Source: Alkalibacterium sp. (GTDB lineage: Bacteria; Bacillota; Bacilli; Lactobacillales; Carnobacteriaceae_A). Taken from it: 64,000 nucleotides of DNA. How positions within the stretch are numbered: position 1 is the first letter of the stretch; each line of letters begins with the position of its first letter. Both the position numbers and the translations under genes were made by a program. The notes below the pieces were generated by a model. That model saw only the letters and a list, made by a program, of their open reading frames with translations, searched no databases and was not told the DNA's origin. Below are positions 42,186-45,847 of the stretch, piece after piece. Location: the NCBI GenBank assembly GCA_020832185.1, contig JAFIFE010000018.1, positions 1 through 64,000 of the forward strand, in the 5' to 3' direction.

Positions 42186-42968
42186 TTAAATGCCTGGCGA
42201 CACCTGCTCTTCTTCAAAAAGAACGAAGAGATCTTCCAAAGTCAGTTTTGCTTTTTCTTCTTTGTTAAGATCCAGTTTAATTTTCCCGTTTTCCATAACA
42301 ATGAGTCGGTTGCCGTAAACCAGCGCATCTTCCATCCGGTGAGTGATCATCAGACAGGTCAATTGGTTTTCTTCGATCACCTGATCTGTCAGTGCCATCA
42401 GTTTTTTAGATGTTTTTGGATCCAAGGCAGCCGTGTGCTCATCAAGAAGCAGCAGATCGGGCTGTGTCAAAGTCGCCATCAGCAAACTAAGCGACTGTCT
42501 CTGCCCACCTGACAAGTGTCCAGTAGGGGTGTCCAAATGTTTTTCCAGTCCGTTTCCGATCGATTCGCATATCTTTTCAAATCGCGTTCTTTGTTCTTTC
42601 AATTTTCGTGGAAGAATGTACCGTTTTTTCCCTCTCTTCAATGCCAGCAGCAGATTTTCTGCGACAGTCATCCGTGGAGCAGTGCCCATTTTTGGATCCT
42701 GAAAAACACGAGATATATACTTGGCTCTTTTTTCTTCCTGCCAGTTGGTTACCTCCTGCCCACTTAATGTCACTGTTCCACTGGTCAACAGACTTGTCCC
42801 TGTAATACTGTTGAATAGAGTGGATTTACCGGCTCCATTTCCGCCGAGTACTGTTACAAAATCTCCTTTGCGTATCGTCAAGTCTAAGTGATCTAAAATC
42901 GTATTGTCTAGATCTGACTCATTTTGGATGGTTTTCGTTGCCTGATGCAGTTTTAGTAATGTATCCAT
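42186..42968 (-). CDS. ABC transporter ATP-binding protein, TrpZ-like
   Basis: 260 residues. Walker A LGGNGAGKSTLFN, signature LSGGQRQSLSLLMATL, Walker B LLLLDEHTAALD and switch ITHRM. It starts 1 bp after the permease stop. The three-gene set (TrpX-type binding protein, branched-chain-type permease, ATPase) matches the predicted tryptophan importer of streptococci and lactobacilli; Trp-containing leader peptides upstream support that substrate. Last gene of the operon; no strong terminator seen just downstream. Confidence 0.82.
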   Translation of the reverse strand: MDTLLKLHQATKTIQNESDLDNTILDHLDLTIRKGDFVTVLGGNGAGKSTLFNSITGTSLLTSGTVTLSGQEVTNWQEEKRAKYISRVFQDPKMGTAPRMTVAENLLLALKRGKKRYILPRKLKEQRTRFEKICESIGNGLEKHLDTPTGHLSGGQRQSLSLLMATLTQPDLLLLDEHTAALDPKTSKKLMALTDQVIEENQLTCLMITHRMEDALVYGNRLIVMENGKIKLDLNKEEKAKLTLEDLFVLFEEEQVSPGI

Positions 42969-42969
42969 G

Positions 42970-43845
42970 TCACGCCTCTTTTCCTATCAGTGTTCCAAGT
43001 CTTAATCCTTTTCTCAATTGAGGAATCATCAAACAAATCGCCAGGATCGATGCACTGTAGATGCGAATATATGTTGTGTCGAATCCCAGACGGATCACGC
43101 CCAGAAGCAGCAGCTGGTAGGCTATGCTTCCGATAACAACGGACAGCAGCCGTTCACCTAACGTGACATCTTTGAAGACAACTTCTCCAATAATCAGTGA
43201 TGCCAGCCCAATAACGATAACGCCTGCTCCGCCATTCACATCAGCATAGCCATTGTTTTGAGCAATCAAAGCACCTGCCAGCGCAATGATTCCATTTGAA
43301 AAAATGAGTCCAATGATTTTCATGCGATCAGTCTTGATCCCGAATGAACGAGCCATTGTCTCATTATCACCCGTTGCGATATAAGCCTGCCCCAAACTGG
43401 TATAGAAGAAGAACAGGAGCAGACTGATGACAGCGATCAGAACGATCACTCCAACAACCACTCTGTCGAAATAAGCCGGGAGGAAATCAAACACGTCGTA
43501 TACACGCGGGAAATTAAGCAAGCTTAAATTGGGACGCTGCATCACGTAAAGAATGACTGAATGCAGGCCGGTCATCACCAGTATCCCTGATAGTATGACT
43601 GGGACCTTTCCTTTTGTATAGAGGAGACCCGTTATAAGCCCCGCCCCCATCCCGGCCAGAAAAGCCAGCACCATTGCCAGTAGCGGGTGTAACCCATTGA
43701 CAATTGCAGTCACCGCTACAGCAGCGCCGAGCGGGAAAGACCCTTCTGCAGTCAGATCCGGAAAGTTTAAAATCCGGTATGTTGTGAATATACCAATACC
43801 TAATACAGCCCATAACAGCCCTTGTGCAATTGCGGATATCAACAT
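42970..43845 (-). CDS. ABC transporter permease, TrpY-like
   Basis: 291 residues, about eight to nine membrane helices, of the BPD_transp_2 (branched-chain amino acid/ribose) permease type: NFPDLTAEGSFPLGAAVAV, GQAYIATGDNETMARSFGIKTDRMKIIGL (coupling helix) and GLASLIIGEVVF. It begins 16 bp after the binding-protein gene and abuts the ATPase gene. Confidence 0.85.
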   Translation of the reverse strand: MLISAIAQGLLWAVLGIGIFTTYRILNFPDLTAEGSFPLGAAVAVTAIVNGLHPLLAMVLAFLAGMGAGLITGLLYTKGKVPVILSGILVMTGLHSVILYVMQRPNLSLLNFPRVYDVFDFLPAYFDRVVVGVIVLIAVISLLLFFFYTSLGQAYIATGDNETMARSFGIKTDRMKIIGLIFSNGIIALAGALIAQNNGYADVNGGAGVIVIGLASLIIGEVVFKDVTLGERLLSVVIGSIAYQLLLLGVIRLGFDTTYIRIYSASILAICLMIPQLRKGLRLGTLIGKEA

Positions 43846-43861: not shown

Positions 43862-44902
43862 TTATTCTCTAACCTCTATAATAGTCGCTTGTTCTAATAT
43901 CGATTCTGGAATAGTAATATTTAGTCGATCTGCTTTTTCCTGATTGACTAAGATGTCTCCTTCACTTAACACAAAGACTGGGAACTCGCTTGGATCCTGA
44001 CCGTCCAGTACTTCAGCAGCCATTCGTCCGGCTTCCTCGCCCATCTCCGTCTGATTGATTCCCACTGTGATCAGCCCACCTTGAGCAATCATCAGATCGA
44101 CTGTCGGGATCAGCGGCATATCATACAGGTCAGCCTCGCTGACGACTGTGTCAAAGGCACTTGCGATAGTGTTGTCTGTTGGAAGGTAAATCGCGTCAAC
44201 TTCCTGTGACATGGATGCGACCATCTGCTGGATTTCGTTTGTGCTTGAAACAGTATAGGTCACTGCTTCCAGTCCCATTTCTTCCAGTACTTCTGCTGCG
44301 CGTTCTCCTTCAGCTCTGGAATTATCTTCTCCCGAGCTGTAAAGCAATCCGACTGTTTCGGCATCCGGTAAAACCTCGATCATTAATTCAAGTTGAGCTT
44401 CGACTGGCGCCTGATTTTTTACACCCGTAACATTTGTTCCCGGCACCTCCTCGGATTCGACGAGTCCGGCACCGACAGGATCGGATACAGCTCCCATGAT
44501 AATGGGAATCTCACTAGTTGCATTGGCAAAAGCCTGACTGGCTGGGGTACCGATACCGATTAGCAATTCTGCCCCTTCTTCAACTAATGACTGAGCCATC
44601 GTGTTCATCAGGTTCTGATCTCCCTGAGCATTCTGGAAAACCACTTCGATGTTTTCACCGTCGATATACCCATGTTCCGCCAATCCCTCGATCGAGCCGG
44701 CGGTTATTTCATCAAGTGAAGGGTGACTGGTTGTCTGTAAAATTCCAACTTTGATCTGTTCCTGTTCACCGGCATCTCCGCTCGCCTGTTCTGTCTCACC
44801 TTCTGTTCCCATATTGTCCGCGCTGGTCAATGACGAAACAAATACCCCAATCAATATAACTAAAATAATGCCTATTGTGATAATCATGCCTTTTCTTTTC
44901 AT
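43862..44902 (-). CDS. ABC transporter substrate-binding protein, TrpX family
   Basis: 346 residues. An uncleaved or signal-anchor N-terminal helix (MIITIGIILVILIGVFVSSL) with no lipobox Cys, an acidic linker, then the PF04392-type binding domain: KVGILQTTSHPSLDEITAGSIEGLAEHGY, IGIGTPASQAF, GAVSDPVGAGLVES, GLLYSSGEDNS and YLPTDNTIASAF. This family includes TrpX, the predicted tryptophan-binding protein. GAGAGGAAAA lies before the ATG. The 480-base leader with Trp-rich short frames and two terminators is described separately. Confidence 0.83.
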   Translation of the reverse strand: MKRKGMIITIGIILVILIGVFVSSLTSADNMGTEGETEQASGDAGEQEQIKVGILQTTSHPSLDEITAGSIEGLAEHGYIDGENIEVVFQNAQGDQNLMNTMAQSLVEEGAELLIGIGTPASQAFANATSEIPIIMGAVSDPVGAGLVESEEVPGTNVTGVKNQAPVEAQLELMIEVLPDAETVGLLYSSGEDNSRAEGERAAEVLEEMGLEAVTYTVSSTNEIQQMVASMSQEVDAIYLPTDNTIASAFDTVVSEADLYDMPLIPTVDLMIAQGGLITVGINQTEMGEEAGRMAAEVLDGQDPSEFPVFVLSEGDILVNQEKADRLNITIPESILEQATIIEVRE

Positions 44903-44923
44903 TTTTAATTTTCCTCTCTGATT

Positions 44924-44989
44924 TTAAGTAATTGATTTGATTGTTCTTACCCTATTCCCTTGCCAGTCCCAGTCAGATTGCATCTGCAT
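44924..44989 (-). CDS. candidate leader peptide 2 with Trp-Asp-Trp, upstream of trpX-like gene
   Basis: Short frame of 21 codons (19 if the second ATG is used) ending 21 bp before the binding-protein start. AAAAGGAG lies 3 bases before the first ATG and 9 before the second. It reads MQMQSDWDWQGN and then a basic stretch. Two Trp codons in a row of seven before a Trp-type transporter gene is unlikely by chance. Probably a translated sensor frame rather than a functional protein; not proven. Confidence 0.5.
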   Translation of the reverse strand: MQMQSDWDWQGNRVRTIKSIT

Positions 44990-45077
44990 CCACTCCTTTT
45001 ATGTAAGCTTAATTGTCGACTCGAGAATGTATTGTTTACTGTCTGACCTGTTAGCCAATACGCTTTATGATTTCAGA

Positions 45078-45130
45078 TAAAACAAAAAGGCAATTCCCAC
45101 GAATGTAACTTAGTCGTGGAAATTGCCTTT
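45078..45130 (-). terminator. second terminator in the trp transporter leader
   Basis: Minus strand: AAAGGCAATT-T-CCACG pairs with CGTGG-G-AATTGCCTTT, followed by TTTTTGTTTT. It lies directly after the first leader terminator. Confidence 0.9.
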
Positions 45131-45172
45131 AAAACAGCAAAAACCACATAGATGGATTGATCATCTATGTGG
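45130..45172 (-). terminator. first terminator in the trp transporter leader
   Basis: Minus strand: CCACATAGATG, 7-base loop, CATCTATGTGG, then TTTTTGCTGTTTT. The 5' arm contains CATAGAT, which is complementary to ATCTATG 35 bases upstream (45207-45213), a possible anti-terminator. Confidence 0.9.
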
Positions 45173-45210
45173 CATTAACTGAAAAATTCTCGTTAAAATA
45201 AGCCGGCATA

Positions 45211-45244
45211 GATACAAAGTTTAGTTTGTCCTAAACGTTGTATC
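45211..45244 (-). promoter_or_regulatory. leader hairpin with alternative pairing partner
   Basis: Minus strand: GATACAA-C-GTTTAG pairs with CTAAAC-T-TTGTATC. Its 5' arm ATACAACG (45243-45236) is also exactly complementary to CGTTGTAT, the last sense codons of leader peptide 1 (45273-45266). The two pairings exclude each other, as in transcription attenuators. Confidence 0.7.
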
Positions 45245-45262
45245 CATGAAAGAAAGTCTTCA

Positions 45263-45352
45263 TCAATACAACGATTTGCGCCAGCTGTTCCAAGCAGTAT
45301 TCAGTTGGTTAAGTTGGTTAAGTTGGTTAAGTTGGTCAAATCGTTTCATCAT
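45263..45352 (-). CDS. candidate leader peptide 1 with QLN repeats and two Trp codons
   Basis: 29 codons from the first of two adjacent ATGs. AAGGAG lies eight bases upstream and a near-perfect promoter precedes it. After MMKRFD it has four Gln-Leu-Asn triplets (from a 9-bp DNA repeat), then TAWNSWRKSLY and stop. Trp codons at 21 and 24, close to the stop and next to an RNA segment with two alternative partners, resemble an attenuator leader peptide for the Trp-type importer genes downstream. It could instead be a small independent peptide gene ended by the two terminators. No homologue recognised. Confidence 0.6.
   Translation of the reverse strand: MMKRFDQLNQLNQLNQLNTAWNSWRKSLY
45302..45337. 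repeat. 9-bp tandem repeat, four copies
   Basis: Plus strand (AGTTGGTTA)n; on the minus strand CAACTTAAC, read as Gln-Leu-Asn inside leader peptide 1. Confidence 0.9.
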
Positions 45353-45388
45353 GCTGAGCTCTCCTTCATGTCTTTTAATGTGATTCTC

Positions 45389-45417
45389 ATATTACACCTC
45401 TTATTTTGATTCGTCAA
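45389..45417 (-). promoter_or_regulatory. promoter of the trp transporter leader
   Basis: TTGACG (45417-45412), 17-bp spacer, TAATAT (45394-45389) on the minus strand; start near 45382, about 30 bases before the ATG of leader peptide 1. Confidence 0.85.
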
Positions 45418-45457
45418 CCGTTATGCTGATTTTTTTTGATTGCTCTCTTTTAATACT

Positions 45458-45847
45458 TTAATTACGTGAAGATTCTCTCACAGCTTTATTTATCTGCCAG
45501 TCTGTAATAAAATCATTGACAAATTTGAAAATAAGTAAAGGAAATATTAAAGACAATATATTGTTTGAATAAAACAGCCCATCGCTACGGAGACTGATCG
45601 TCACGAAAAAATAGATCAAAACAGCAAATATATACACTAAATCAAGTATGCTATTGATTATGATCGCTTTTTTGACTTTATCTGTTTTGATTTCTTTTTC
45701 TTTTAATAGTGCACTCACGTTAAACCCACGAAATATAGTAATATAAATTGAACTATATTCTTTCTGAGTAGCTTTGTAAATAGCTACCCCTTTCAAAACA
45801 GCTAAGACAATCGATACACCAACTATAATACTATACATGATTATCAT
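45458..45847 (-). CDS. small membrane protein, unknown
   Basis: 129 residues with three predicted helices (about 4-24, 64-88 and 100-120) and a basic middle loop (LLKEKEIKTDKVKKA). No family recognised. AAAGGAG seven bases before the ATG supports translation. It lies upstream of the Trp leader on the same strand; the leader has its own promoter, so the two are probably separate units. Confidence 0.6.
   Translation of the reverse strand: MIIMYSIIVGVSIVLAVLKGVAIYKATQKEYSSIYITIFRGFNVSALLKEKEIKTDKVKKAIIINSILDLVYIFAVLIYFFVTISLRSDGLFYSNNILSLIFPLLIFKFVNDFITDWQINKAVRESSRN

Follow-up and report, generated by a model that had tools for sequence, protein, structure and literature searches.

A putative tryptophan leader-peptide attenuator with two tandem terminators upstream of a trpXYZ importer operon in Alkalibacterium and related Lactobacillales

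The switch that precedes the tryptophan importer genes of an Alkalibacterium genome is very probably a ribosome-mediated (leader-peptide) transcription attenuator that senses charged tRNA-Trp. This reading of the sequence, which concerns part of a 64,000-nucleotide stretch of DNA analyzed as a whole (the window), is supported by computation: a conserved leader, a match between leader codons and downstream genes, covarying and exclusive pairings, and the geometry of the ribosome. From these we infer stalling, antitermination, and termination in the cell, their kinetics, the role of a pairing termed L:3, and the control of a second terminator by a pairing termed 5:6. A Trp leader-peptide attenuator before a TrpXYZ importer had been proposed for this locus from its letters alone (the original prediction), and the leader, the exclusive pairings, and the identity of TrpX described below uphold that proposal. 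Beyond it lie the Rfam identity of the element, the L:3 pairing, the complementarity between terminators 1 and 2, and the direction of the switch. What is new about this attenuator is its pair of terminators, which look interlocked.

All features of the locus are on the minus strand. The promoter-like site TTGACG-17-TAATAT, part of the original prediction, lies at 45389..45417 (9/12) and has counterparts in relatives' loci, 85 of 143 of which carry a site of at least 10/12 about 62 nt 5' of the leader ATG. A Shine-Dalgarno (SD) sequence, AAGGAG (45361..45366), is followed by the leader peptide frame of 29 codons (45263..45352), which reads MMKRFDQLNQLNQLNQLNTAWNSWRKSLY up to its stop and has Trp codons at 45292-45290 and 45283-45281. 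Segment L, AGCUGGCG (45279..45286), spans Ser-Trp codons of this frame and is complementary to UGCCGGCU at 45208-45201. Segment 1, CGUUGUAUUGAUGA (45260..45273), is complementary to segment 2, CAUGGAUACAACG (45236..45248), which is the 5' arm of hairpin P1. Segment 3, GUAUCUAUGCCGGCU (45201..45215), comprises the 3' arm of P1 plus CCGGCU, and its possible partners are L, 2, or 4. Terminator 1 is made of segments 4 (5' arm, 45162..45173) and 5 (3' arm, 45143..45154, then a U run), both recognized by sequence and covariation, while terminator 2 is made of segments 6 (5' arm, 45114..45130), a partial complement of segment 5 and its tail, and 7 (3' arm, 45086..45102, then a U-rich run), identified by a terminator search. 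The genes downstream are trpX (43862..44902), for a tryptophan ABC transporter substrate-binding protein (NF041285, 402.3 bits with a cut-off of 390; PF04392), trpY (42970..43845), for a permease (PF02653), and trpZ (42186..42968), for an ATPase (PF00005), in agreement with the TrpX/Y/Z-like genes first proposed. Between terminator 2 and trpX lies a second small frame, MQMQSDWDWQGNRVRTIKSIT (44924..44989), with an SD sequence and two Trp codons of its own; similar SDW-containing frames occur in many loci of family f1, and some f2 loci have other Trp-bearing small frames at this place. The second frame is possibly a second, translational layer of control.

The sole above-threshold Rfam match in the leader region is RF04312, the "trpB motif" (45132..45250, 61.2 bits with a gathering score of 59), of which P1 and terminator 1 of the window are a member by score; matches to DapZ and LPR17 in the same region are below threshold and are taken as chance. 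Narunsky et al. (2024, PMC11109978) described the motif as a candidate riboswitch with no assigned ligand and reported more than 900 copies from Firmicutes and Fusobacteria, mostly 5' of an uncharacterized ABC transporter. As published it consists of P1 and a terminator, and the leader frame, segment 1, segment L, and a second terminator are not mentioned in the part of that text drawn on here. At an E value of 0.001 or below, RF04312 was found in 36 of 60 relatives, in 211 of 395 genomes of the order, in 15 of 299 genomes of the class (12 of them of the window's order, its own genome included), and in 5 of 299 genomes of the phylum, three of these being judged false. As the searches score few candidates per genome, absence of the motif from a genome has little meaning. 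A set of 152 loci was made up of the matches listed, which were the better-scoring ones, the search of the order having more. Weak matches rejected as false were L153 to L155, where leader and fitting gene are both missing, and L059 and L138, with no leader and no fitting gene.

Since the Rfam model starts at P1, the motif loci were chosen independently of the leader. Leader frames were picked blind, by start codon and SD alone and ignoring Trp, in 150 loci (152 minus L059 and L138). An SD-preceded frame ending near the motif is present in 146 of them, compared to a mean of 26.5 in 20 rounds of dinucleotide shuffles; Trp falls within the last ten leader codons in 136 loci versus 2 in shuffles and makes up 16% of the last-ten residues versus 0.9%. 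Conservation of the frame and of its Trp codons in related genomes, proposed as a check at the outset, lies far above the shuffles for both. The leader typically ends in WQ[SN]WRR, families f2, f5, and f9 often having the first Trp alone. By class, 101 leaders are WxxW, 41 are single-W, 6 are Phe/Tyr, 1 is His (HHHH), and 1 (L024) is left unclassed by the script but has one Trp by eye. With R1, an extended attenuator model, a W leader accompanies 55 of 55 matches, a count that is not independent because R1 includes the Trp codons. R1 also matches the window's other strand at 22.7 bits, which is taken as a palindrome echo.

To compare true with false partners, a swap test took the RNA duplex energy between a segment and its partner at the same locus and set it against the energies with partners of other genera, one locus per genus being drawn 20 times. 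For each of 1:2, P1 (2:3), 3:4, and terminator 1 (4:5), none of 10,000 permutations over 42 genera reached the real value; the same is true of 5:6 over 39 genera. Among seven control pairings, six are at chance (1638 or more of 10,000) and one, 1:5, is not clean (19 of 10,000), in our reading because segment L resembles the 5' arm of terminator 1. Segment L pairs with the 3' arm of P1 and the conserved CCGGCU after it, and here again 0 of 10,000 permutations reached the real value, with two controls near half (148 rows; L143 is without a recognizable P1). Covariation was measured in alignment A1, whose 63 rows are 66 loci picked with a limit of two per genus, minus the near-copies L005, L029, L044, and L057, removed by hand, plus the window. 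In the three counted structures 88 to 93% of cells are paired, and for each structure all five measures of covariation beat all 500 shuffles, which ignore relatedness, and all slid versions. Examples are column pairs 54-101 (GC 26, AU 25, CG 6), 36-144 (GC 21, AU 13), and 188-223 (GC 29, AU 23). L:3 is the least uniform helix, with 80.7% of cells paired, and a conserved bulge after GAUAC in P1 pairs with segment 1 and covaries. Two complementarities of the original prediction, that of the leader's last codons to the 5' arm of P1 and that of a stretch after the P1 hairpin to the 5' arm of terminator 1, hold across genera by these tests, and the compensatory base changes that it proposed to look for are present. 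Swap tests and covariation over about 40 genera support a putative set of exclusive pairings: leader end with P1 5' arm, P1, P1 3' arm with terminator 1, terminator 1, terminator 1 with terminator 2, and control codons with P1 3' arm.

The spacing of codons and segments bears on the direction of the switch. Across 147 loci (L119 and L135 skipped), the first control codon lies 18 to 20 nt 5' of segment 1 (5th to 75th percentile), and the stop codon lies 1 nt 5' of it at the median (11 nt after to 8 nt before, 5th to 95th percentile). If the footprint reaches 12 to 14 nt past the A site, more than 2 nt of segment 1 would be hidden in about half to 70% of loci once the ribosome has come to the last control codon. 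The RNA that we folded starts at the leading edge of the ribosome (A site plus 13) and stops at the loop of terminator 1, at a point where the 3' arm is still unmade; equilibrium folding serves as a stand-in for kinetics. Over 142 loci, the mean antiterminator probability of segment 3 is 0.78 with the ribosome at the first control codon (>0.5 in 89% of loci), 0.70 at the last control codon (79%), 0.10 at the stop codon (3.5%), and 0.17 without a ribosome (12.7%), in which last state segment 3 is held on average by P1 at 0.56 and by L:3 at 0.16. The folding set, like the promoter set of 143, excludes L084, L109, L126, and L135 (where a wrong GTG frame was picked blind, a W leader being apparent by eye), L119 (for which no frame was picked), and L024 (unclassed); the folding set also excludes L143. 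The corresponding values for the window are 0.99 at the first codon, 0.91 at the last, 0.01 at the stop codon, and 0.76 without a ribosome, so the default state of the window may be on. Two loci depart from the general behavior: the His locus L054, at 0.02 for the first control codon, shows no switch in folding, and L147, a Phe/Tyr locus, is still antiterminated (0.64) when the ribosome has reached the stop codon.

In most loci, then, the model predicts with good confidence that stalling at the control codons turns the operon on and completed translation turns it off. In the folding, the antiterminator is freed by a stalled ribosome but not by one that has come to the stop codon, so the importer would be on when charged tRNA-Trp is scarce. 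The converse, a stalled ribosome that covers segment 1 and leaves the operon off at low Trp, is opposed by the codon-to-segment 1 spacing. The original prediction held that charged-Trp or translation status of the short frame decides terminator formation, and the modeled folding supports this; its further statement that hand folding could not fix the direction, stalling logic being in conflict, gives way to a direction predicted by footprint-removed folding, the conflict being answered by the same spacing.

In the mechanism that we propose, the leader peptide would be translated while polymerase makes the downstream RNA. A ribosome waiting at a Trp codon would cover L and leave segment 1 free to pair with segment 2, blocking P1; segment 3 could then pair with segment 4 and block terminator 1, and the freed segment 5 could pair with segment 6, holding off terminator 2 and allowing the importer to be transcribed. 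With plentiful Trp, a ribosome at the stop codon would cover both L and segment 1, P1 and both terminators would form, and the operon would be off. When the leader carries no ribosome, segment 3 would be held by P1 and, in some loci, by L:3, and most loci would be off by default.

The second terminator, also part of the original prediction, was found in 130 of 149 loci (L059, L138, and L031 are left out of the terminator analyses), compared to 36 to 61 in five shuffles, and has an energy below -12 kcal in 114 loci, compared to 15 to 20. It was not found in 19 of the 149, among them four of five f4 loci and five of six trpB loci. Segment 6 is a better partner for segment 5 and its tail than are arms swapped in from other genera. 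Relative to shuffled arms, the real 5:6 pairing has 9.6 versus 7.3 expected pairs and is higher in 117 of 130 loci, while at least five pairs form in 122 real versus 115 shuffled cases; part of the pairing consists of U runs against A-rich arms. Coupling of terminator 2 to the switch via 5:6 is fairly likely on this sequence evidence; of all the steps it is the weakest. A limited search of the open-access literature found no description of two terminators set by one decision.

A downstream frame is present in 150 of the 152 loci, and BLAST links 138 of these frames to a TrpX cluster and 6 to a trpB cluster, trpB being confirmed by TIGR00263 in five of five tested; Trp leaders precede both trpX and trpB. 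R1 gave two to four matches in each of eight Enterococcaceae genomes, one being an opposite-strand echo. Among 13 loci read there, two have Trp leaders 5' of trpX; in the others the leader is of the [FY]YFSYF type and the next gene is aroE-like (seven loci), a DHQ synthase gene (PF01761, one locus), or a TrpX paralogue (three loci). The two aroE-like genes tested match TIGR00507 with 214.5 and 202.1 bits (cut-off, 200.2), and at L255 a DAHP synthase fragment follows the aroE-like gene. The His leader (L054) lies 5' of a hisZ-like gene (TIGR00443, 218 bits, under the cut-off of 271.65), and no further His copies were found in four other genomes of its family that were searched. Two genes do not fit: at L099 a single-W leader precedes an Opp4A-like oligopeptide binding protein, and at L031 a motif copy precedes a frame that by eye resembles a group II intron reverse transcriptase.

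A tree was made from 67 TrpX proteins (129 thinned so that no genus kept more than two of a class, with four from Enterococcaceae added). In it the seven Phe/Tyr-leader proteins make up a single clade (100/99); two changes suffice for the three leader classes, and none of 200 shuffles needed as few. Two further Phe/Tyr loci, L058 and L152, are outside the tree. Four of five W-leader TrpX proteins score above the TrpX cut-off (402, 468, 425, and 446 bits; L085, at 373, is below), whereas the six Phe/Tyr-leader proteins scored are all below it, at 384, 269, 319, 289, 333, and 335, the 289-bit protein (L151) being cut at the locus end. Leader codon content offers a sequence-based handle on the substrate of uncharacterized TrpX-like importers such as the Phe/Tyr clade.

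Two features sit less well with an attenuator: the single Trp codon of 41 of 150 leaders and of L024 is little for a sensor, and the Gln and Ser residues next to the Trp codons show more conservation than stalling requires. Both would suit nascent-peptide arrest, in which the leader is read as W-Q-S-W-R-R and the ribosome is halted by free Trp or another small molecule, the same hairpins responding to its position. TnaC is a leader peptide with such arrest. Gln and Ser/Asn between the Trp codons recur in most alignment rows, and the trpE leader of the window's own genome has the same SWQSW. We nevertheless regard arrest as improbable: Phe/Tyr and His leaders share the architecture, with matching genes, despite quite different peptides, and pairing with segment 3 accounts for part of the residue conservation. 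Off would also be the outcome if arrest occurred near the stop codon at high Trp, and the two readings differ only in the signal.

Highly unlikely, in our estimate, is the 2024 proposal of a riboswitch, with P1 binding an amino-acid-related ligand and the upstream frame incidental. The conserved unpaired bases of P1 in the Rfam model fit a ligand, and the authors class the motif as a strong riboswitch candidate, although passages of the same paper leave a protein factor or a classic attenuator possible (PMC11109978). The leader frame, SD, and Trp codons are conserved far above chance, however; leader codons track downstream gene function, which a riboswitch can hardly explain; and the conserved bulge after GAUAC is accounted for by its covarying pairing with segment 1. 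Least credible are plain terminators with trpX transcribed from a promoter 3' of terminator 2 and the leader merely fine-tuning, for although the window has about 180 nt from terminator 2 to trpX, with the second Trp-codon frame there and the nearest promoter-like site on the strand (44881-44853) inside trpX, many relatives have trpX 40 to 100 nt after the motif, with little room for such a promoter, and the alternative pairings are conserved.

A T-box reading of the trpX leader was rejected for want of a match to RF00230, none being over threshold in the window or at an E value of 1 or below in 44880-45480; the absence of a T-box here had been noted at the start, and the same genome has 15 T-boxes at an E value of 0.001 or below, 10 of them over the cut-off. 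We also examined 80 TrpX loci chosen by protein from named genomes, the best 80 of a longer list. Among these best 80, R1 lies upstream in 53 at an E value of 1e-3 or below and more weakly in 2 more, a T-box over threshold is present in 18 (Streptococcus), both together occur in none, and neither occurs in 7. The refuting pattern named at the outset, a retained transporter without conserved Trp codons or pairings, is not what these 80 loci show. In Streptococcus suis, trpX is described as being under T-box control (PMC9382623). The T-box before trpXYZ in Streptococcus shares operon, signal (uncharged tRNA-Trp), and output with the attenuator but works without a ribosome or a leader peptide.

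Several loci outside the main set deserve mention. Two of the seven TrpX loci with neither element are from Bifidobacterium (L187 and L238) and have, by eye, W-R-C-W-R-R and W-R-G-W-R leaders; R1 gives no match at either, though a P1-like hairpin can be seen by eye at L187. Judged by eye, these W..W leaders would represent transfer or convergence across phyla. At trpX of Streptococcus acidominimus (L221), a T-box-like remnant is followed, by eye, by the leader MKKRWRIWFL. The trpE-like gene of the window's own genome has a T-box, preceded by a conserved 33-codon frame, MANNSFIQLTVHYSWQSWGVDVRAGYWRCAKIE (L160, 1233-1334), ending in a stop, and then a terminator-like hairpin. This apparent tandem of Trp leader and T-box occurs at the trpE-like gene in 6 of 12 same-genus genomes searched, its own included (L160, L265 to L270); R1 gave no match to the trpE leader, which lends no support to counting it in the present class.

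The leader attenuators of E. coli trp and Salmonella his are characterized by control codons, stalling at low charged tRNA, and exclusive hairpins. The window's leader shares the codons and the hairpins and is predicted to share the stalling, and its pairing chain is nearer to his, whose logic is described in PMC9413887, than to trp. It differs from both in lacking an Rfam match to such leaders, in the pairing of its control codon region with the 3' arm of P1, in having two terminators linked by 5:6 complementarity, and in its codons, which are WxxW or single W rather than tandem. The His leader attenuators of Firmicutes (PMC2965389, PMC9413887) are likewise Gram-positive leader-peptide attenuators but, in the portions of those papers used here, concern His only and carry no link to RF04312; L054 may be one of the Erysipelotrichales His attenuator cases.

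A second Rfam family falls in with the Phe/Tyr leaders. In the TrpX locus searches, all nine hits to RF02863 coincide with [FY]YFSYF copies found with R1. This family, sRNA_2410 of Enterococcus, was described as a small RNA, with two transcripts in Northern blots of E. faecium and no mention of amino acids in the sections of the paper cited here (PMC5593968); here it reads instead as the terminated leader of an aro operon. Two transcripts are as expected from two terminators, and processing fits as well.

On balance we lean toward a wider reading, in which "domino" attenuators are widespread in Lactobacillales (and, by eye, in Bifidobacterium), with one ribosome position setting seven competing pairings and two tandem terminators and with interchangeable Trp, Phe/Tyr, and His codon cassettes; such a class would unite two orphan Rfam families, and its codons would predict the substrates of TrpX-like importers. 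On the attenuator reading itself, RF04312 would pass from an orphan riboswitch candidate to a testable mechanism, and RF02863 with the Enterococcus sRNA_2410 would be explained as a terminated leader. In these bacteria, where T-boxes are the main known control of such genes, the analysis indicates ribosome attenuators for Trp and Phe/Tyr. Elsewhere in the window, also on the minus strand, are a THF riboswitch (RF01831, 27512-27608, 69.6 bits) and, at its edge (1-628), part of a 16S rRNA gene.
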